Under the pieces are notes generated by a model, which saw only the letters and a program-made list of their open reading frames with translations, was not told the DNA's origin and did no database searches. Positions 6,728 to 53,006 of a DNA stretch of 64,000 bases are shown in pieces; position 1 is the first letter of the stretch, and each line of letters begins with the position of its first letter. Both the position numbers and the translations under genes were made by a program. This DNA is from Deltaproteobacteria bacterium (GTDB taxonomy: Bacteria; Myxococcota; Myxococcia; Myxococcales; 40CM-4-68-19), in assembly GCA_005879315.1 (NCBI GenBank), contig VBLC01000033.1:1-64000 (forward strand). The letters are read 5' to 3'.

Positions 6728-8656
6728 ATGTCCGACGCCATCGAGCCCGTTCAATCCGCGCCCCTTCCGGCGGAGGGCGCTGCGCTTTCGCGCGCGGCCG
6801 ATCCGCTCGCAGACGACTGGTCCGAAGGTCTGCGCGGGCCGGTGCGTGCGCTGGGGATTCCCGAGCCGAAGCGGTTGCAGCCGGACGAGATCGCGCCGGC
6901 AGCTCCTCCACAGCCCGCTGCGCCTGCCGCCGAAGTCGAGGCGCCCGATGGCTGGGCGGCGACCGAGGACCCGCTGCACTCGCACCCCCCGGCTGCGGCC
7001 GACTTTCGCGATACACCGCCCTCGCCCGCGCCGGCGTTCGTCGCGGAAATGCCGCCTGCACCGCCGTCGTTCGAGGCCGAGGCGCCGCCTGCGCCGCCGT
7101 CGTTCGAGGCCGAGGCGCCGCCTGCGGTGCCGTCGTTCGAGGCGGACAAGACCCCGCCGTCGGCCTCGCCGGCGTTCGTCGCTGAGGTTCCTCCGGCCGC
7201 GCCTGCCTTCGTCGCGGAGCCCGCCGCTTCGTTGGCGCAACCTCCTCCGGCAGAGCCGGCGGTCTCTTGGATCGCGCCAGCGGCCACTCCCGCGGCCGAA
7301 GCCATTCCTACGGTTCCTCAGGCCGCGGCTCCGGCGCCGCCAGCTCTCGCTCCCAGCGTCGAAGCACCGCCGGTCTGGACTGCGCCACCTGCCGCTCCCG
7401 CCGAGGAGCCGGCCACTCCCTGGAGCGAGCCGGTCGCAGCTCCGCCCTCTGCCCCAGCGGTCGATCCATGGACCGCCGCGACTCCCGCCATCGATCCCTG
7501 GACCGCCACGCCGGTCACTGCCGAGACCCAGGCTTCGGCTTGGGGCGCAGTTGCAGCGATGCCAGCGGCTCCGATCACCGCTCCTGAAGCCGCCGCTCCG
7601 GCGCCTGCCGACGCCTGGTCGATGCCTCCGCCTGTCGACTCTTCCGCGCCGGCCGCCGATCCGTGGAGCGCGAGCCCCGCGCCGGCTGCCGCCGAAGAAT
7701 GGAAAACGGAAGCGCCGAGCGACGAATGGCAGGAGATCAAGAGGGAGCCGCCGCCCGATCTCGGCGCGACGCCGGCCGCGGACTGGAGCACGCTCTCGAA
7801 AGGTCCCAACTGGGCCGCCCCGCCTCCCACCGATGCTGCTGCGCCCGCCGAAGACTCCTGGGGCGCGCCTCCGCCCGCGCTCACGAATTCGGCCTGGGAC
7901 GCTCCACCCGCCCCCGCGCCGGCTGCCGCCGCCGGGAGCGAATGGTCCCCTCCGACTGCGGCTCTCGAGGCGGAGTGGTCCCCACCGCCGCCGCCACCCG
8001 AGAGCATGCCCTCGTGGACTCCCCCGCCGGCCGCCGTTGTCCTCGAGGAATTCGAGCCGATCGAGCCAACGCCGGGCGCAGCGAAGGATCTGTTCGGATC
8101 TGTTCCGGCGGGCGGTTCGCTCGCCGGCGACGATGATCTGACGGCCGCCGAGACGCCGGCCGGGGAGGAAAAGCCGGTGGTGCTTTCCGACGACGACGCC
8201 GATCTCCTCGTTCCGATCGACGATGACTCGCCCGCGCCCAAGGCGCAGCCGCTGGCGCAGTTCTCGCCGGTTTCGCTCAGCCCGCTGGAGGTGTCCGGCG
8301 AATTTCGGGTGGCGGTGCACACTCGCGGCGGTCGGACGGTGCGCGGGTCGGTGAAGGACATCGACCTGGCAAAGTCGTCGTTCCTGCTCTCGCCCCAGGG
8401 CGGGGGCGACTACGAAACCGTCTACCACAGCGACGTGAAGGCCATCTTCTTCATGCTCGCGCCCAACGAGAAGGCGCAGCAGGGCGACGGCAAGAAAGTG
8501 CGCGTCACCTTCGCCGACGGGCGCACCGTCGACGGGCAGCGCGACGGAGGCGAGGCGAAGCACGGGTTCTTCATCGTGCCGCTCGACGCGCAGAGGACGA
8601 ACACGCGAAAGATCTACATCGCGCGCGAAGCCACCTCCGACGTCAAAGAAATCTGA
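6728..8656 (+). CDS. Pro/Ala-rich disordered protein with C-terminal beta domain
   Basis: The 642-residue product starts with about 500 residues dominated by Ala, Pro, Ser and Glu. Short tryptophan motifs recur in this region (DPWTA, PWSEP, DAWSMPPP, EWSPP), and a perfect 11-residue repeat occurs three times. This part is probably disordered. The last 120 residues form a folded domain of beta-rich sequence (FRVAVHTRGGRTVRGSVKDI ... VRVTFADGRTVDGQ), two copies of a strand-turn-strand unit that recalls small PilZ-like or DUF6982-type domains of myxobacteria. That assignment is tentative. No signal peptide is present, so it is probably cytoplasmic. A role as a tethering or regulatory protein is plausible but unproven. 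Confidence 0.7.
   Translation: MSDAIEPVQSAPLPAEGAALSRAADPLADDWSEGLRGPVRALGIPEPKRLQPDEIAPAAPPQPAAPAAEVEAPDGWAATEDPLHSHPPAAADFRDTPPSPAPAFVAEMPPAPPSFEAEAPPAPPSFEAEAPPAVPSFEADKTPPSASPAFVAEVPPAAPAFVAEPAASLAQPPPAEPAVSWIAPAATPAAEAIPTVPQAAAPAPPALAPSVEAPPVWTAPPAAPAEEPATPWSEPVAAPPSAPAVDPWTAATPAIDPWTATPVTAETQASAWGAVAAMPAAPITAPEAAAPAPADAWSMPPPVDSSAPAADPWSASPAPAAAEEWKTEAPSDEWQEIKREPPPDLGATPAADWSTLSKGPNWAAPPPTDAAAPAEDSWGAPPPALTNSAWDAPPAPAPAAAAGSEWSPPTAALEAEWSPPPPPPESMPSWTPPPAAVVLEEFEPIEPTPGAAKDLFGSVPAGGSLAGDDDLTAAETPAGEEKPVVLSDDDADLLVPIDDDSPAPKAQPLAQFSPVSLSPLEVSGEFRVAVHTRGGRTVRGSVKDIDLAKSSFLLSPQGGGDYETVYHSDVKAIFFMLAPNEKAQQGDGKKVRVTFADGRTVDGQRDGGEAKHGFFIVPLDAQRTNTRKIYIAREATSDVKEI
7051..7149 (+). repeat. Three tandem 33-bp coding repeats
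   Basis: Three adjacent 33-bp units encode the 11-residue repeat APPAPPSFEAE with few substitutions, inside the disordered region of the gene starting at 6728. Copy number could change by slippage or recombination. Confidence 0.85.
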
Positions 8657-12942: not shown

Positions 12943-13982
12943 GCGAGGAGCTCTTCGCCGACCTGCTCGGTGGTGGCGGCCGGCCCGCCGAGAAAGGGCA
13001 CCAGGTCGGGCGTGCGCGCGCCGCGCTCGATCTGCTGCTCGACCGCTGACTCCAAGAGAGCCGCCTCGCGCGGATGACCGAGGTGCTCGAGCATCAGCGC
13101 GCCGCTCAAAGCCATCGCCAGCGGATTGGCTTTCCCCTTTCCGGCGATGTCCGGCGCGCTGCCGTGCACCGGCTCGAAAAGCGAGACGCGCCCGGGGTGG
13201 ATGTTTCCGGAAGCCGCGATGCCGAGCCCGCCGGTGAGGGCCGCGCCCAGATCGGTGAGGATGTCGCCGAAGAGGTTGTTGGTGACGATCACTTGATACG
13301 CCTCCGGCTGACGGATGAGATCCATCGCCAGCGCATCGACGTACATCGCTTTCGCCTGCAGCGCGGGATGGCGCGCGCTCACCTCGGCGAAAACGCGCCG
13401 CCAGAGGCCGTGGCCGAAGAGGAGCACGTTGGCCTTGTCGGCCAGGCACACGCGCGAAAGCCCGCGCTGCCCGGCGTACTGGAAGGCGGCCTCGCAGATC
13501 CGCTCCACGCCACGGCGCGTGTTGATCTCGACTTCCTGCGCGATCTCGTCGGCGGTGCCCTGCCGGAAGACACCGCCGATGCCCGCGTAGAGTCCCTCGG
13601 TGTTCTCGCGAAAGAAGGTGAGGCGCAGATCTGCGCGCCGCTTGCCCTTGAGCGGCGTCAGGCGATCGTCGAAGAGCAGGCAAGGCCGCAGGTTGATGTA
13701 GAGGTCGAGCTCGAAGCGCATCGCGAGGAGGATGCCCTTGGCGTGCTCGTTCCCCGGAACGCGCGGATCGCCCACCGCGCCGAAATAGACCGCGGCAAAC
13801 TCCTTGCGCAGCGTCTCCATGAAACCCGGCGGGAGAATGGTTCCATCGCGCAGGTAGCGCTCGGCGCCGAAGTCGAACCATTCGAAGCGGAGCGGCAGGC
13901 CGAAGCTTTCCAGGATGCGCACGCCGATGCGCGCCACCTCGGGCCCGATGCCGTCGCCGGGGATGACCGCGATGCGCTGCAC
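12921..13982 (-). CDS. Isocitrate/isopropylmalate dehydrogenase family enzyme
   Basis: This 353-residue metal- and NAD(P)-dependent decarboxylating dehydrogenase of 2-hydroxy acids spans the whole fold, from the IPGDGIGPE start to the VHGSAPDIAGKGKANP signature with a conserved NAD-binding loop. Visible substrate and metal residues include the Arg-rich YINLRPC strand, FFRENTEGLYAG, DKANVL and the TNNLFGDILTDL aspartates. It is LeuB-sized but could also act on tartrate, homoisocitrate or malate. The chosen GTG at 13982 places the motif IAVIPGDG directly after the start. It is coupled to the thioesterase gene. Confidence 0.85.
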   Translation of the reverse strand: MQRIAVIPGDGIGPEVARIGVRILESFGLPLRFEWFDFGAERYLRDGTILPPGFMETLRKEFAAVYFGAVGDPRVPGNEHAKGILLAMRFELDLYINLRPCLLFDDRLTPLKGKRRADLRLTFFRENTEGLYAGIGGVFRQGTADEIAQEVEINTRRGVERICEAAFQYAGQRGLSRVCLADKANVLLFGHGLWRRVFAEVSARHPALQAKAMYVDALAMDLIRQPEAYQVIVTNNLFGDILTDLGAALTGGLGIAASGNIHPGRVSLFEPVHGSAPDIAGKGKANPLAMALSGALMLEHLGHPREAALLESAVEQQIERGARTPDLVPFLGGPAATTEQVGEELLACLSSLR

Positions 13983-14036
13983 GGCGCCGACCCTAGCTTG
14001 ACTTACGGCGGCTGTCGCGCTTGGATCCGCGATCCC

Positions 14037-14216
14037 ATGCCCCAGCGCGAACTCGAGCAGCAGAAGCCGGAAGTGTCCGCCCCGCCCTCCTGGGAGCGAT
14101 CCCCCTGGGTGCCGGAGGAGCGGATCGCGGCGCAGCCCGAGGGGCAGGAGCAGCTGGCGCTGCCGCTGCGGCTCGCCGACCAGAACGAGCACGTCGTCGA
14201 TCTGTTCGAGCGGTAG
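14037..14216 (+). CDS. Small acidic hypothetical protein (59 aa)
   Basis: A 59-codon ORF with about 90% G or C at third codon positions starts with ATG at 14037 and ends just before the sugar dehydrogenase gene. The product is rich in Glu, Gln and Pro (MPQRELEQQKPEVSAPPSWE) and has no membrane segment. I see no clear Shine-Dalgarno sequence apart from a weak GGAT. Codon bias supports it as a real gene; its function is unknown. Confidence 0.5.
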   Translation: MPQRELEQQKPEVSAPPSWERSPWVPEERIAAQPEGQEQLALPLRLADQNEHVVDLFER

Positions 14217-38912: not shown

Positions 38913-39959
38913 ATGGCCGGTTCCTGGGTGACCATTCTCTTCGGCGGCACCTCCAACGAGCGGCGCGTCTCGGTGGCCTCGGCGCAAAACGTCGCCTCCG
39001 TGCTCGACGAGGCGGCAGCCTGGTTCCTCGCCCCCAACGGCGCCGTCTTCGAGGTGGAGCGGGCCGACCTGGGCAAGTGCGAGCGCCCCTTCGAACGCGA
39101 CTTCGTGCCGCTCGGGCCGGCGCGGTTCGCCACGCTGGTCGAGGCGCTGGAAAGCGCGCCCGGCCGCGTCTATTTTCTCGCCTTGCACGGCGGCGAGGGC
39201 GAGGACGGCACCATCCAGCGGATGCTGGAGGCGCGGCGCATCGCCTTCACCGGCCCTGGGGCGGAGGCGTCCGCGCGCGCTTTCGACAAGGAGGTGGCCA
39301 AGCAGGTCGCGAACGCGGCGGGGCTGCGCATCGCCCGCTCCGTCCACCTCTCCAGCCGGCCCGACCTGATGCGCCAGGAGCTGCGCGACATGCTCGCGCT
39401 CTCCGGCCGCACCGTGGTCAAGCCGGTCGCGGGTGGGAGCACGCTCGGCGTCCATTTCATCTTCCGCCCCGAGGACCTCGAGCCGGCCGCGCGAGCGGTG
39501 GAGACTTCGGGCGAGGGTTATCTCGCCGAGGAGTTCGTCGAGGGCATCGAGCTGACGGTCGGCGTCGTCGATGGCCCGCGCGGCGCCCGCGCGCTGCCGG
39601 CGACGGAGGTCCGCCTCGATCCGGGGCGCGCCTTCGACTACGAGGGAAAGTATCTCGGGAAAGGCACCAAGGAGATCACGCCCGCCGAGGTGCCCCAGGA
39701 CGTCGCGCGCACGGCGCAGGACGTAGCGCTGCGGGCGCACATCGCTCTCGGCTGCGAGGGCTATTCGCGCACGGACATCATCGTCGGCAGGGGCGGGCCG
39801 GTCTTTCTCGAGCTCAATACACTGCCGGGCCTGACGCGGATGTCGTTCGTTCCCCAGCAGCTGGCGGCGGAAGGGACGACGATGTTGCAGTTTCTCGAGG
39901 GGCAGATCGGCATCGCGCGCGCCAGGCGCGATCGTCAGCCGCAGTCGGGAATCGTCTAG
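38913..39959 (+). CDS. D-alanine-D-alanine ligase-like ATP-grasp enzyme
   Basis: This 348-residue ATP-grasp ligase begins with the Ddl-type [19 protein letters not shown], continues with [18 protein letters not shown], and carries the substrate and ATP motifs [13 protein letters not shown] and [15 protein letters not shown]. Peptidoglycan precursor synthesis is the likely job, although the substrate may differ from D-Ala. I place the start at ATG 38913 because of alignment to the family; ATG 38895 would add six residues. It is inserted between xerC and hslV together with the RAYT gene. The TAG stop and the RAYT stop overlap on opposite strands (CTAG). Confidence 0.84.
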
Positions 39960-40576
39960 CCGCGGCCGCCGTCACCAGTCCGGCGCCAGTCGAGGCGCAA
40001 GAGCCAGAGCCGCGGCGGCGCGGTGAGCGGCGGGTCGTGGCCGCGGGTGGCCTCCGAGGTGAGCGGGTCGAGGTAGTGAGCGGGCAAAAACCAGCCCTCG
40101 CGCGCGGCGTGGTGGGTGCGGTTGTGCAGCAGGTAGAGGATGGCGAACTGCACTTCCGGAGGCGTCTTCAGGATCCGTGCGTAGTAGCGGTGGGCGATGA
40201 CCTGGCCCCTGCGGCGCATCGTCTTGTTCAAGGCGCGGGCGATCCGGACGCCGAGGCCCTTCATGGCGCGGGCAAGCTGCACCTGGTCGGGCGCCTCGAC
40301 GACGAGGTGGAGGTGGTTCCACTGGACGGAGAAGTGCACCAGGCGGAAGCCGAAGCGCTCGCAGCCCTTGGCGAAGGCGCGCTTGAGAGCGCGGAAGGAG
40401 CGGCGAGTGCGCAGGCTCCAGACTTCGCGGCGCATGCGGATGGTGACGTGGAGCGGCTTCCAGCGGAAATGCTTTCGCTTGCGGTGCGGGACTCGCCGGA
40501 GCGTCTCCCTCCGCTTGCGGCCGGCGCCGCGTCGTTTTCCTCCCCACTGCGGCAGGTCCAACTCGAGCTGTGCCAT
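39956..40576 (-). CDS. REP-associated tyrosine transposase (RAYT, IS200-like)
   Basis: This 206-residue single-domain Y1 transposase resembles domesticated RAYT proteins. The basic start (MAQLELDLPQ then GKRRGAGRKRR) is typical of this branch. The HUH metal motif is NHLHLVV (His88 and His90), and the catalytic tyrosine should be Tyr131 or Tyr132 in AHRYYARIL. RAYTs mobilise or maintain REP repeats. Here a tandem repeat array lies directly upstream, and TAGCCGCGGCCGCC at the 3' end resembles the start of the 74-nt element. The ATG at 40576 suits the family; upstream starts exist. No terminal inverted repeats of a classical IS are visible. Confidence 0.82.
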   Translation of the reverse strand: MAQLELDLPQWGGKRRGAGRKRRETLRRVPHRKRKHFRWKPLHVTIRMRREVWSLRTRRSFRALKRAFAKGCERFGFRLVHFSVQWNHLHLVVEAPDQVQLARAMKGLGVRIARALNKTMRRRGQVIAHRYYARILKTPPEVQFAILYLLHNRTHHAAREGWFLPAHYLDPLTSEATRGHDPPLTAPPRLWLLRLDWRRTGDGGRG

Positions 40577-40640
40577 GGCCGCGAGGGTACGCGGGGGGTC
40601 TGACATCGGCGCCGGCCAGGAGGGGCGGGCCGTGCACCTG

Positions 40641-40873
40641 GATGTCCGCCCAATCAAGTTGCTCCGCGGGGCAACCGCCGATTTTGACCGCCGCAGATGT
40701 ACGCCGAATCAAGTTGCCGCGGCGGCAACCGCTGACGCTGATTCGACCGCCCGCAGATGTACGCCGAATCAAGACGTGCCCTTGTCGCCGGCGCGCAAAC
40801 TTGAATTGGGCGGACATCGCGAGAGGCCCCGTCCCGGCGGCACGAATGCTTCGAACTTGAAAGGGCGGACATT
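40641..40873 (+). repeat. REP-like tandem repeat array upstream of the RAYT gene
   Basis: Three direct units start at 40641, 40696 and 40756 (55 and 60 bp apart). Each begins with GATGTmCGCCsAATCAAG. Units 1 and 2 then carry a hairpin (GTTGCCGC G GCGGCAAC in unit 2; GTTGC ... GCAAC in unit 1) and a GAnnGACCGCC tail, and CGAATCA/TGATTCG flank the unit-2 hairpin. Two further copies of the motif are inverted (40800 and 40856). The array fills most of the 364-base gap between the RAYT start and the xerC stop, in which I see no gene. Confidence 0.8.
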
Positions 40874-40940: not shown

Positions 40941-41813
40941 TCACCCTTTCTTCGCCCGCGGATGCGATTCCTCGTAGATCTGCAGCAGCCTCTCGGACGA
41001 GACGTGCGTGTACCGCTGCGTCGTGGACAGCGAGGCGTGGCCGAGCAGCTCCTGGATCCCCCGCAGGTCGGCGTCCATGTCGAGCAGGTGGGTGGCGAAA
41101 GAGTGGCGGAGCGCATGGGGATGCACGTGCCGGCGCGCGCCGGCCGCGAGGGCGTGGCGGACGACCTGGCGGGCGACGCTTCGAGCAGTCAGGCGGCCAC
41201 CGCGGCGATTGAGGAGGAGCGCCTCGCTGCGCGGACAGAGCTCCCCGCGGCGCGCGAGATACTTGTCGAGCGCCTCGCGCGCCTTGGCCACCAGCGGGAC
41301 GATGCGCTCCTTTCCGCCCTTGCCGCGAACGCGCAGGGCGCCGTCGTGAATGTCCGCCAAATCAAGTCCGGTCAGCTCCGAGACGCGCAGTCCCGCGCCA
41401 TAGAGCAGCTCCAGCGCGCAGCGATCGCGCAGGCCGGCCACCGTGCGCGCATCCGGCGCCTCGAGCAGGGCAAAGCAGTCGTCAACCGAAACGACATTGG
41501 GCAGCGCCACGCGCCGCTTGGGAAAGACGAGCCGCCGCGCCGGGCTGTCCGCGATGTGACCCATGCGCAGGCGGTGCTGGTAGAAAGCGCGCAGGCTGGC
41601 CTGCTTGCGGGCGAGCGTCGCCGGCGAATTGTTGCCGAAGCGAGAGGCGAGAAAAGCGCGCAAGTCATCGCGGCTGGCAGCGTCGAGCTCGACGCCGCGC
41701 TCGCCGAGAAACGCCGCGAGCTGGCGCAGGTCCGAGAGGTAGGCGCGGCGGGTGTGCGGCGAGGCGCGCTCGACCCGGGCGAGGTGCGCGGCGAACTCCT
41801 CCAGCTCCTTCAT
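40941..41813 (-). CDS. xerC: Tyrosine recombinase XerC
   Basis: This 290-residue tyrosine recombinase carries the N-terminal SAM-like DNA-binding domain (HLARVERASPHTRRAYLSDL) and the catalytic residues Arg143 (GAGLRVSEL), Lys165/168, His233-x-x-Arg236, His259 and Tyr268 (RYTHV). It should resolve chromosome dimers. Its place in the dprA-topA-trmFO-xerC-hslVU string corresponds to Bacillus CodV/XerC rather than to a phage integrase. An 18-bp REP-like motif lies inside the gene at 41348-41366 and introduces AT-ending codons (CTT GAT TTG ... ATT). Confidence 0.93.
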   Translation of the reverse strand: MKELEEFAAHLARVERASPHTRRAYLSDLRQLAAFLGERGVELDAASRDDLRAFLASRFGNNSPATLARKQASLRAFYQHRLRMGHIADSPARRLVFPKRRVALPNVVSVDDCFALLEAPDARTVAGLRDRCALELLYGAGLRVSELTGLDLADIHDGALRVRGKGGKERIVPLVAKAREALDKYLARRGELCPRSEALLLNRRGGRLTARSVARQVVRHALAAGARRHVHPHALRHSFATHLLDMDADLRGIQELLGHASLSTTQRYTHVSSERLLQIYEESHPRAKKG

Positions 41814-47382: not shown

Positions 47383-48540
47383 TCACCTGCGCAGGAAGTA
47401 CTTGCCTGGCCGCTGGACAGCCAGGCCTTTGAGCTCCAGGTCGGCGAGCTTGCGAAGCGCCACCTGGGAGGGGATCTGGGTGCGCAGGGCCAGATCGTCC
47501 AGGTGGGCGGGCTTGCGGTCGTCCAACAGCCGCCAGAGCTGCAGGCTCTCGCCATCGACGTCAGGGTCGGCGATGGGTTTCGGGGTCGCTTTCTCCCGCG
47601 CCTCGCGCGAGGGCGGCGCGGACAGTCCATCGGGGATGGGCCAGTGCAAGCCCTGGAGGACGTCGAACGCACAGCGGGCAGCGGTCGCTTTCTGCCGGCG
47701 GAGGAGCTCGTTCGGTCCGGCCGCCAGCTCGTGGTCACCAGGGACGGCGAAGATGGGTCGCCTTTGCAGCGCGGCGTGATCGGCGGTGATCAGCGCTCCT
47801 GACTTGAGCGCTGCGCGCACGACCACGACCGCATCCGAGAGCCCACTGATGGTGCGGTTGCGCTGGGGAAAATTCTTTTGCGTCGGCGGCGTGCCCGGAG
47901 CGAACCCGGTCACCACCGCGCCTCCCCCACTGGCGATCCGATCGAACAGCTCGCCGTTCTCGGCCGGATAGACGACGTCGATTCCGCAGCCGAGCACCGC
48001 CACCGTCGAGCCCGAGGCAGAGAGGGCGCCCTCGTGTGCGGCGGCGTCGATGCCGCGGGCCCCGCCGGAGACGACCTGCGTGCCGGCGCGAGCGAAGTCC
48101 TCGCCCATGCGGCTCGCGATCTCCAGGCCTTCCTCGTCGGCCTCGCGCGATCCGACCACCGCGATGCGCCGCGCCTCTCGCTGGAGATGTCCCCGCAAAT
48201 AGAGCAGCGCAGGCGGGTTGTCGATCTTGCGCAGCTGCAGCGGATAGTCATCGTCGCCGAGAAGCAGTACCCGGGCGCCGGCCTTCCTGGCCGCCTCGAG
48301 CGCCCAGAGTCCGAGCTCCCGCAGATCAGGAGCCTTGGCCAGATAAGCGCGAGCGCGGGGGCGGAGCTTGAGAATGTCCGCCCTTTCAAGAATCGCCTGC
48401 GGTCCGCGCTCCGCCGCCCCCTGCAAAGTCTGGAATTCCGCAGCGATGCGCCCCAAGCTGGATCCACCCAGCCCCGGCACTGCAGACAACGCGCAAGCGG
48501 CCACGACTTCGGGCCGCACTTGAAGTGCGTCCTTCTCCAC
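47383..48540 (-). CDS. dprA: DNA-processing protein DprA (Smf)
   Basis: This 385-residue product protects incoming single-stranded DNA and loads RecA during natural transformation. The Rossmann-like core is clear: RIAVVGSREADEEGLEIASR, VVSGGARGIDAAAHEGAL, VLGCGIDVVYPAENGELF and FPQRNRTISGLSDAVVVV. A C-terminal winged-helix domain (DDLALRTQIPSQVALRKLADL) ends it. The start is GTG at 48540. A REP-like motif lies inside at 48372-48390 and encodes part of LERADI. The gene heads the topA-trmFO-xerC-hslVU string. Confidence 0.93.
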   Translation of the reverse strand: MEKDALQVRPEVVAACALSAVPGLGGSSLGRIAAEFQTLQGAAERGPQAILERADILKLRPRARAYLAKAPDLRELGLWALEAARKAGARVLLLGDDDYPLQLRKIDNPPALLYLRGHLQREARRIAVVGSREADEEGLEIASRMGEDFARAGTQVVSGGARGIDAAAHEGALSASGSTVAVLGCGIDVVYPAENGELFDRIASGGGAVVTGFAPGTPPTQKNFPQRNRTISGLSDAVVVVRAALKSGALITADHAALQRRPIFAVPGDHELAAGPNELLRRQKATAARCAFDVLQGLHWPIPDGLSAPPSREAREKATPKPIADPDVDGESLQLWRLLDDRKPAHLDDLALRTQIPSQVALRKLADLELKGLAVQRPGKYFLRR

Positions 48541-52382: not shown

Positions 52383-53006
52383 TTAGGAGAGGGCTCCGCG
52401 CCCCTTCAGCTGTTTACGGACGAACCATGCCACGGCGAGCAGGCCGACCGCGACGAGAAGCGCATCGAAGCGGTGGAACCAAGGCTTGAGCTGGTCGATG
52501 TGCTCGCCGAGAAGCATTCCCACCCAGGCCAGCCCCAGGCACCAGGGCAGTGAACCAGCGAAGGTGTAGACGACGAATTTTCCCATCGGCATCCGCGCCA
52601 CGCCGGCGGGGAAGGCGATGAAGGTTCGCACCACCGGCAAGAGCCTCGCGACGAACACCGTCACATCGCCGCGGCGGGCGAAAAATTTGTCCGCCCAATC
52701 AAGATGCTCTGGAGAGAGCAGCACGTACTTGCCGTAGCGCAAGATGAGCGGACGCCCCCCATAAGCCCCTGCGTAGTAGGCGGGAATGGAACCGATGACG
52801 CAGCCGATGGCGCCCGCCAGGCCCACTCCCCACAAGGTGAAGCGCCCCGAAGGAACCAGGCTCCCGGCGAAGGGCATGATCACTTCCGAGGGCAGCGGAA
52901 TGCAGGCGCTCTCGATGGCCATCAGCCCCGCCACGCCGCCATAGCCCAGTGCGGAGATGACGCCCTGGATCCAGGCGGCGACCGCCTCGAGCGTCTGCGC
53001 GATCAC
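52383..53006 (-). CDS. DedA family membrane protein
   Basis: This 207-residue SNARE-associated/DedA protein of the inner membrane is a flippase-like family that includes UndP transporters for undecaprenyl phosphate. The signature ESACIPLPSEVIMPFAGSLV, the GSIPAYYAGAYGG segment and RLLPVVRTFIAFPAGVARM with the essential Arg residues are all present. The GTG start overlaps the KamA stop (GTGA). The gene contains the REP-like 19-bp motif at 52685-52703, encoding part of LDWADK. Confidence 0.9.
   Translation of the reverse strand: MIAQTLEAVAAWIQGVISALGYGGVAGLMAIESACIPLPSEVIMPFAGSLVPSGRFTLWGVGLAGAIGCVIGSIPAYYAGAYGGRPLILRYGKYVLLSPEHLDWADKFFARRGDVTVFVARLLPVVRTFIAFPAGVARMPMGKFVVYTFAGSLPWCLGLAWVGMLLGEHIDQLKPWFHRFDALLVAVGLLAVAWFVRKQLKGRGALS

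Follow-up and report, generated by a model that had tools for sequence, protein, structure and literature searches.

The closest described relatives of the locus considered here are the TnpA-REP or RAYT systems with their REP or REPIN sequences, also known as REPtrons (PMC8266576, PMC6006769, PMC3116915). A second kind, the TIRYT or TIRtron, consists of a RAYT-like gene with inverted repeats that are unrelated to the GTAG REPs, occur in the genome as singles, dimers or clusters and have the described consensus GGGGWSAS (PMC3733652). Short repeats are also found within genes: intragenic REPs and Rickettsia palindromic elements have been described as insertions, many of which add 20-30 codons or more (PMC3733652).

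The window, by which the whole analysed stretch of 64,000 nucleotides is meant, is contig C50 of the draft genome G000 (4.43 Mb, 98% complete). Its host is a soil myxobacterium of an uncultured genus of Myxococcia, and all genomes compared with it are drafts. No paper linking RAYTs to Myxococcota was found in the literature.

The Y1 gene and its upstream array

The window harbours a Y1 (HUH plus Tyr) transposase-like gene of 206 codons (39959-40576, minus strand), which an earlier note on this DNA had recognized and which matches Pfam Y1_Tnp (PF01797, E=4e-8). The HxH motif is located at residues 88 and 90 and the catalytic tyrosine at residue 148, within YxLxN; H88, H90 and Y148 are invariant in an alignment of 10 homologues and also among 64 homologues of the order. 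The distance of 58 residues between HUH motif and tyrosine fits the medians of 58-67 reported for most subclasses (PMC6006769). The protein does not reach the curated model of REP-associated transposases, NF047646 (REP_Tyr_transpos), with 27 bits vs a cut-off of 80. A search of solved structures returned weak IS200-type matches alone (E=0.19), and no relative was found in a scan of the contigs of named genomes. The gene starts with the ATG at 40574-40576, which is preceded by TACCCT (40584-40589) and, further upstream, by TGTCAGACCCC (40595-40605), all on the minus strand, and the order TGTCAGACCCC-N5-7-TACGNT/TACCCT-like-N6-10-ATG recurs in all homologues of the window subtype. From its sequence, this stretch (40574-40605) is a candidate promoter and leader of the gene.

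The gene is preceded by an array of short repeats, or heads. When the whole window was searched for ATGTMCGCCSAATCAAGT with up to three mismatches, seven matches were obtained against 0.10 expected, the maximum in 100 shuffles being 2. Closest to the gene is the inverted arm R1, ATGTCCGCCCAATCAAG (40642-40658, plus strand), followed at spacings of 55 and 60 bp by R2 (40697-40713, plus) and R3 (40757-40773, plus), both ATGTACGCCGAATCAAG. Beyond them are located two heads of opposite orientation: F2, ATGTCCGCCCAATTCAAG (40800-40817, minus), which is one base longer than the other heads and forms a 61-bp convergent pair with R3, and F1, ATGTCCGCCCTTTCAAG (40856-40872, minus). Read in the direction of the gene, the order is therefore F1 and F2 (forward), R3, R2 and R1 (inverted), TGTCAGACCCC, TACCCT box and ATG. 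The three direct units of 55-60 bp and the two further inverted heads reported in the earlier note are thus confirmed. No head lies downstream of the gene, and both arm orientations are confined to its upstream side.

The same note had described a GTTGC...GCAAC hairpin in two of the units and proposed a bipartite repeat composed of a linear head plus a stem. The letters of the stems are present (40658-40675 and 40713-40729, plus strand), but a stable fold is not predicted in the DNA context (z = +1.6 and -1.6) and the stems are missing from the paralogous array in G000:C87. The stem was therefore discarded as a conserved part of the repeat, and the bipartite unit gives way to a head that would be a single arm, either of a long, imperfect hairpin or of a terminal inverted repeat. 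The window F2-R3 pair itself folds no better than shuffled sequences, so that the window array may have decayed or may serve as a set of separate sites.

Heads at related Y1 genes

The head arrangement is conserved together with the gene. A paralogue of 80% identity (G000:C87:44602-45195) is likewise preceded by two forward and three inverted heads, and the DNA between these heads differs from that of the window. In sister genomes, whose closest homologues are 57-61% identical, convergent forward and inverted heads stand upstream of the Y1 genes at G006:C347, G002:C247, G005:C98 and G005:C87, the spacers ranging from none to about 150 bp. At G005:C98 and G002:C247 the two arms are merged by overlap into one 33-nt hairpin. 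At G005:C87, identical 19-bp heads at 13147 (plus) and 14295 (minus) additionally bracket the gene (13543-14121) as inverted repeats. Folded as single-stranded DNA, the head pairs of the relatives form a 10-bp stem, then a TT/TT bulge and additional pairing, with z = -4.4 to -7.2. Forward arms tend to carry TTT and inverted arms AAT (Fisher p=0.04).

The window subtype is a supported clade among the 64 Y1 homologues of the order. A related motif, GCC/CCC-S-AATCAAG (or GCC- or CCC-N-AATCAAG), stands at the 5' end of most of the order's Y1 genes; in one large group it follows a TTGACA-N17-TANNNT promoter-like sequence and precedes the start codon. Its form changes from one clade of the Y1 protein to another, which argues that it is cognate. 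The claim that the heads belong to this gene is accordingly borne out at the paralogue and the closest sister homologues, with related motifs before most Y1 genes of the order.

Several further Y1-type arrangements were encountered. A second Y1 family is present in G000 in eight copies (C55, C61, C91, C51, C21, C97, C69 and C65; L016-L018, L020-L022, L024, L025). In each, a TTGCA-N17-ATATAT promoter-like stretch leads into CCCCAATC and then ATG, and several adjoin a common repeat ending in CTGTAAAGGATCTACTTGGTTT, possibly the end of an insertion sequence. A convergent mixed pair, ATATCTCCCAATCAAG facing CTTGAAAAGGCGGACAT, is found at about 7664-7780 of G000:C40 (L124) with no adjacent Y1 gene recognized; its ATATCTCCCAATCAAG resembles the motif of the other Y1 family. 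A divergent Y1 gene on G001:C142 (L251) has the same TGTCAGACCCC leader and an imperfect inverted repeat of its own, ATCTCTGCCCAAATCGAT...ATTGATTCGGGCAGAGAT, possibly a second arm specificity. Repeats starting with ACGTCCGCCCATTCAAGT occur at 580338, 580497 and 3479404 of G033:C1 (L088, L096, L102), a genome with a weak Y1 match only, and are similar to the motif that precedes Y1 genes in G041, G051 and G070.

The paralogue layout, the foldable convergent pairs and the bracketing repeats together point to the heads as arms of one cognate structure, a hairpin or a terminal inverted repeat. The 17-18 bp head would then constitute one arm, ATGTCCGCC(C)TTTCAAG in forward and CTTGATTGGGCGGACAT in convergent orientation. 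Exposed as single strands, on the lagging strand, the arms could pair through the 10 bp, bulge and further stem seen in the folds. By analogy with HUH/Tyr chemistry and the known TnpA-REP enzymes, the Y1 protein would most likely bind and nick this arm hairpin. In the window lineage, the arms appear to have increased in number at the locus itself (F,F,R,R,R). Since they stand just upstream of the gene and are locally multiplied, they may act as its own recognition, and probably regulatory, site, through which the protein might control its own expression. In one relative, the arms would delimit a unit that may have been mobile in the past.

With modest confidence, we therefore regard the locus as probably TnpA-REP/TIRYT-like: a Y1 subfamily in which each head would be one arm of a cognate structure, an imperfect hairpin or terminal inverted repeat, that its own Y1 protein would bind and nick and that would serve the gene as a recognition, and probably regulatory, site. 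Against this reading stand the poor fold of the window F2-R3 pair, the lack of a GTAG-type guide, the scarcity of stand-alone pairs and the presence of heads in G023, a genome without a Y1_Tnp gene.

In the model of the earlier note, a RAYT-REP system, this RAYT would have dispersed the heads as REP/REPIN sequences, and copy number would follow the gene. The adjacency of gene and heads and the discovery of additional genomic copies, including convergent pairs, agree with such dispersal, as does a stand-alone convergent pair of 67 bp at G005:C50. This pair is the one clear case, and as there are hardly any others, there is no sign of recent spread. The other scattered copies occur as single arms, in place within coding genes, and neither a GTAG tag nor an individual palindrome is discernible. 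Moreover, head number does not track the window RAYT subtype: G001 (96% complete) has no window-subtype Y1 gene and 15 scattered heads, whereas G005 (100% complete) has two such genes and 3 scattered heads. Across seven related genomes, the total of Y1_Tnp genes shows a weak positive trend with head number (Spearman 0.73, P 0.06). G023, which belongs to another family (2.7 Mb), holds at least 48 head copies, arranged in short tandem arrays, and is devoid of Y1_Tnp genes, so that another protein can own the motif. Copies that sit in place within genes and do not follow the RAYT in number contradict the proposal in part, and we consider dispersal by this RAYT unlikely. The arrays of G023 (C14, C49, C84, C96, C108 and C110; L228, L244-L247) consist of a head-like 16-17-mer, ATGTCCGCCGAWTCAA, spaced mostly 33-52 bp apart.

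Heads scattered through coding genes

The heads away from Y1 loci constitute a second, real phenomenon, separate from the Y1-linked heads. Copies of ATGTCCGCCNWWTCAAG, counted with one mismatch in the seven genomes of the genus and about 130 others of the order, number 23, 15, 26, 5, 3, 7 and 9 in the former. Outside Y1 loci, about 15 remain in G000, 15 in G001, 19 in G002, 5 in G003, 3 in G004, 3 in G005 and 5 in G006. This is equivalent to 0.6-5 per Mb, an enrichment of 20-150 fold over the other genomes of the order, which hold about 0.03 per Mb, or some 0.3 heads each, a few exceptions such as G023, G008 and G033 apart. An exact-head scan of named genomes yielded 8 contigs, most from unrelated taxa with one match each and one from the sister G002.

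The window offers its own examples, all on the plus strand. One, overlooked in the earlier note, is ATGTCCGCCAAATCAAG (41350-41366) inside xerC (40941-41813, minus), and an exact copy is present in the xerC of G002. Another, ATGTCCGCCCTTTCAAG (48374-48390), is situated inside a coding region, and a third with one mismatch (52687-52703) lies in a membrane-protein gene whose orthologues align without a 17-bp gap. Nearly all scattered heads fall within coding regions, where they occupy several frames in sense as well as antisense orientation, coding status being called from codon-position GC and open frame and not from annotation. The genes concerned include xerC, selA (two), a penicillin-binding protein, trpC, mobA, folP, yggS and tatD, among others, with names read from translations except for xerC (Pfam).

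Could these be chance coding matches, with the Y1-linked heads alone being real? Some sites are indeed ordinary conserved coding sequence that is head-like by protein constraint (GGDEF 'GLLNRRTF', MobA 'LEWADI'), and about half of one genome's heads are not shared by its nearest relative. Against this, a Markov model predicts 0.1-0.4 heads per genome vs 14-19 observed in three genomes (P < 1e-16), and the about 130 other genomes of the order average some 0.3 each. A control pattern with swapped halves matched once, overlapping a window head, and had no independent match in eight genomes; the reversed pattern matched once. A search for second heads around 58 scattered heads disclosed, outside the window array, convergent partners only, namely in selA (162 bp), folP (233 bp) and mobA (295-298 bp, four genomes). 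Chance is thus disfavoured by the controls, and as a full account it appears very improbable.

Insertion is likewise disfavoured by the sequence alignments. In comparison with orthologues, the head mostly replaces homologous sequence and leaves no gap of head length; at the head sites selA and folP are 2-3 codons shorter than their orthologues, and trpC alone shows a possible gain of 5-8 residues. REP insertion into genes was rejected on these grounds. The least strained and most economical reading would be that the in-gene heads are a putative protein-binding site which evolved in place and is kept because a head-binding protein uses it.

Which protein this would be leads to two tentative proposals. 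According to the first, the head would be mainly the double-stranded binding site of a host protein, a regulator or chromosome organizer, with about 5-20 chromosomal sites mostly in genes and clusters at Y1 genes that control or silence them. The enrichment, the near-silent controls, the spread over frames and senses without clean insertions, the in-gene convergent pairs and the tandem arrays of G023 without Y1_Tnp all speak for it. Positions outside the search pattern (R at -1, W at +17 and Y at +18) show the same bias in scattered and Y1-linked heads. Conservation is more equivocal. Over all sister genomes heads are no more conserved than their flanks (0.30 vs 0.24 mismatches), which are saturated at silent sites. 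Head-rich genomes compared among themselves share heads more than flanks and the opposite holds against head-poor genomes; since the sites by which richness was scored overlap with those compared, this contrast is in part circular. Conservation between species is only moderate, head counts are small and differ between sister species, the motif lacks palindromic symmetry and no candidate protein has emerged; a host protein as the main owner is possible, though doubtful.

In the second proposal, a 21-bp motif, RATGTCCGCCNWWTCAAGWY, common to Y1 loci and conserved coding genes, might be the chromosomal address for a protein that binds heads and that could itself be a domesticated Y1 protein. Genes would have acquired this motif in place through point mutations and not by insertion, some of them as convergent pairs. 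We offer this as a speculative suggestion of limited likelihood. If the coding heads are a binding site, they would tie domesticated transposases to a chromosome-wide function. To our knowledge, such a role of RAYTs has often been guessed at and never shown.

Comparison with known systems

The locus shares with TnpA-REP/RAYT systems a Y1 HUH/Tyr gene beside hairpin-forming repeats of both orientations, direct and inverted, a bulged stem and, in each lineage, one gene with its own repeat variety. It differs in having no GTAG guide, as far as arrays read by eye reveal, and in that each head is one arm and not a palindrome, pairs of arms making the hairpin. In addition, the scattered copies of G000 are nearly all intragenic with almost no dispersed intergenic pairs, and the protein falls far below the NCBIfam cut-off. 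The window locus is not a standard RAYT-REP system. As regards REPINs, head pairs were seen at Y1 genes and, standing alone, once at G005:C50, with no evidence of movement.

From the IS200/IS605 family the locus has the Y1 transposase fold, whereas a near-identical multicopy element is lacking: the window subtype is represented by just two diverged paralogues, and neither subterminal hairpins at the two ends nor a fixed target could be found for it. The scattered heads resemble intragenic REPs and the Rickettsia palindromic elements in being a short repeat family inside conserved protein genes in several frames; unlike these, they mostly leave no head-length gap, and two sites are shorter than their orthologues.

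The TIRYT/TIRtron arrangement is approached at G005:C87 with its bracketing repeats. The window and most relatives differ in that both kinds of arm, forward and inverted, stand upstream of the gene instead of flanking it, and the intragenic copies are in place and not inserted. On the TnpA-REP/TIRYT-like reading, the Myxococcia would gain a Y1/TIRYT-like subfamily whose cognate arm sequence is defined, together with the puzzle of the same motif being enriched inside ordinary genes without insertion. Our verdict is that the locus is probably a variant of the TnpA-REP/TIRYT kind, with the coding-gene motif as its interesting residue.
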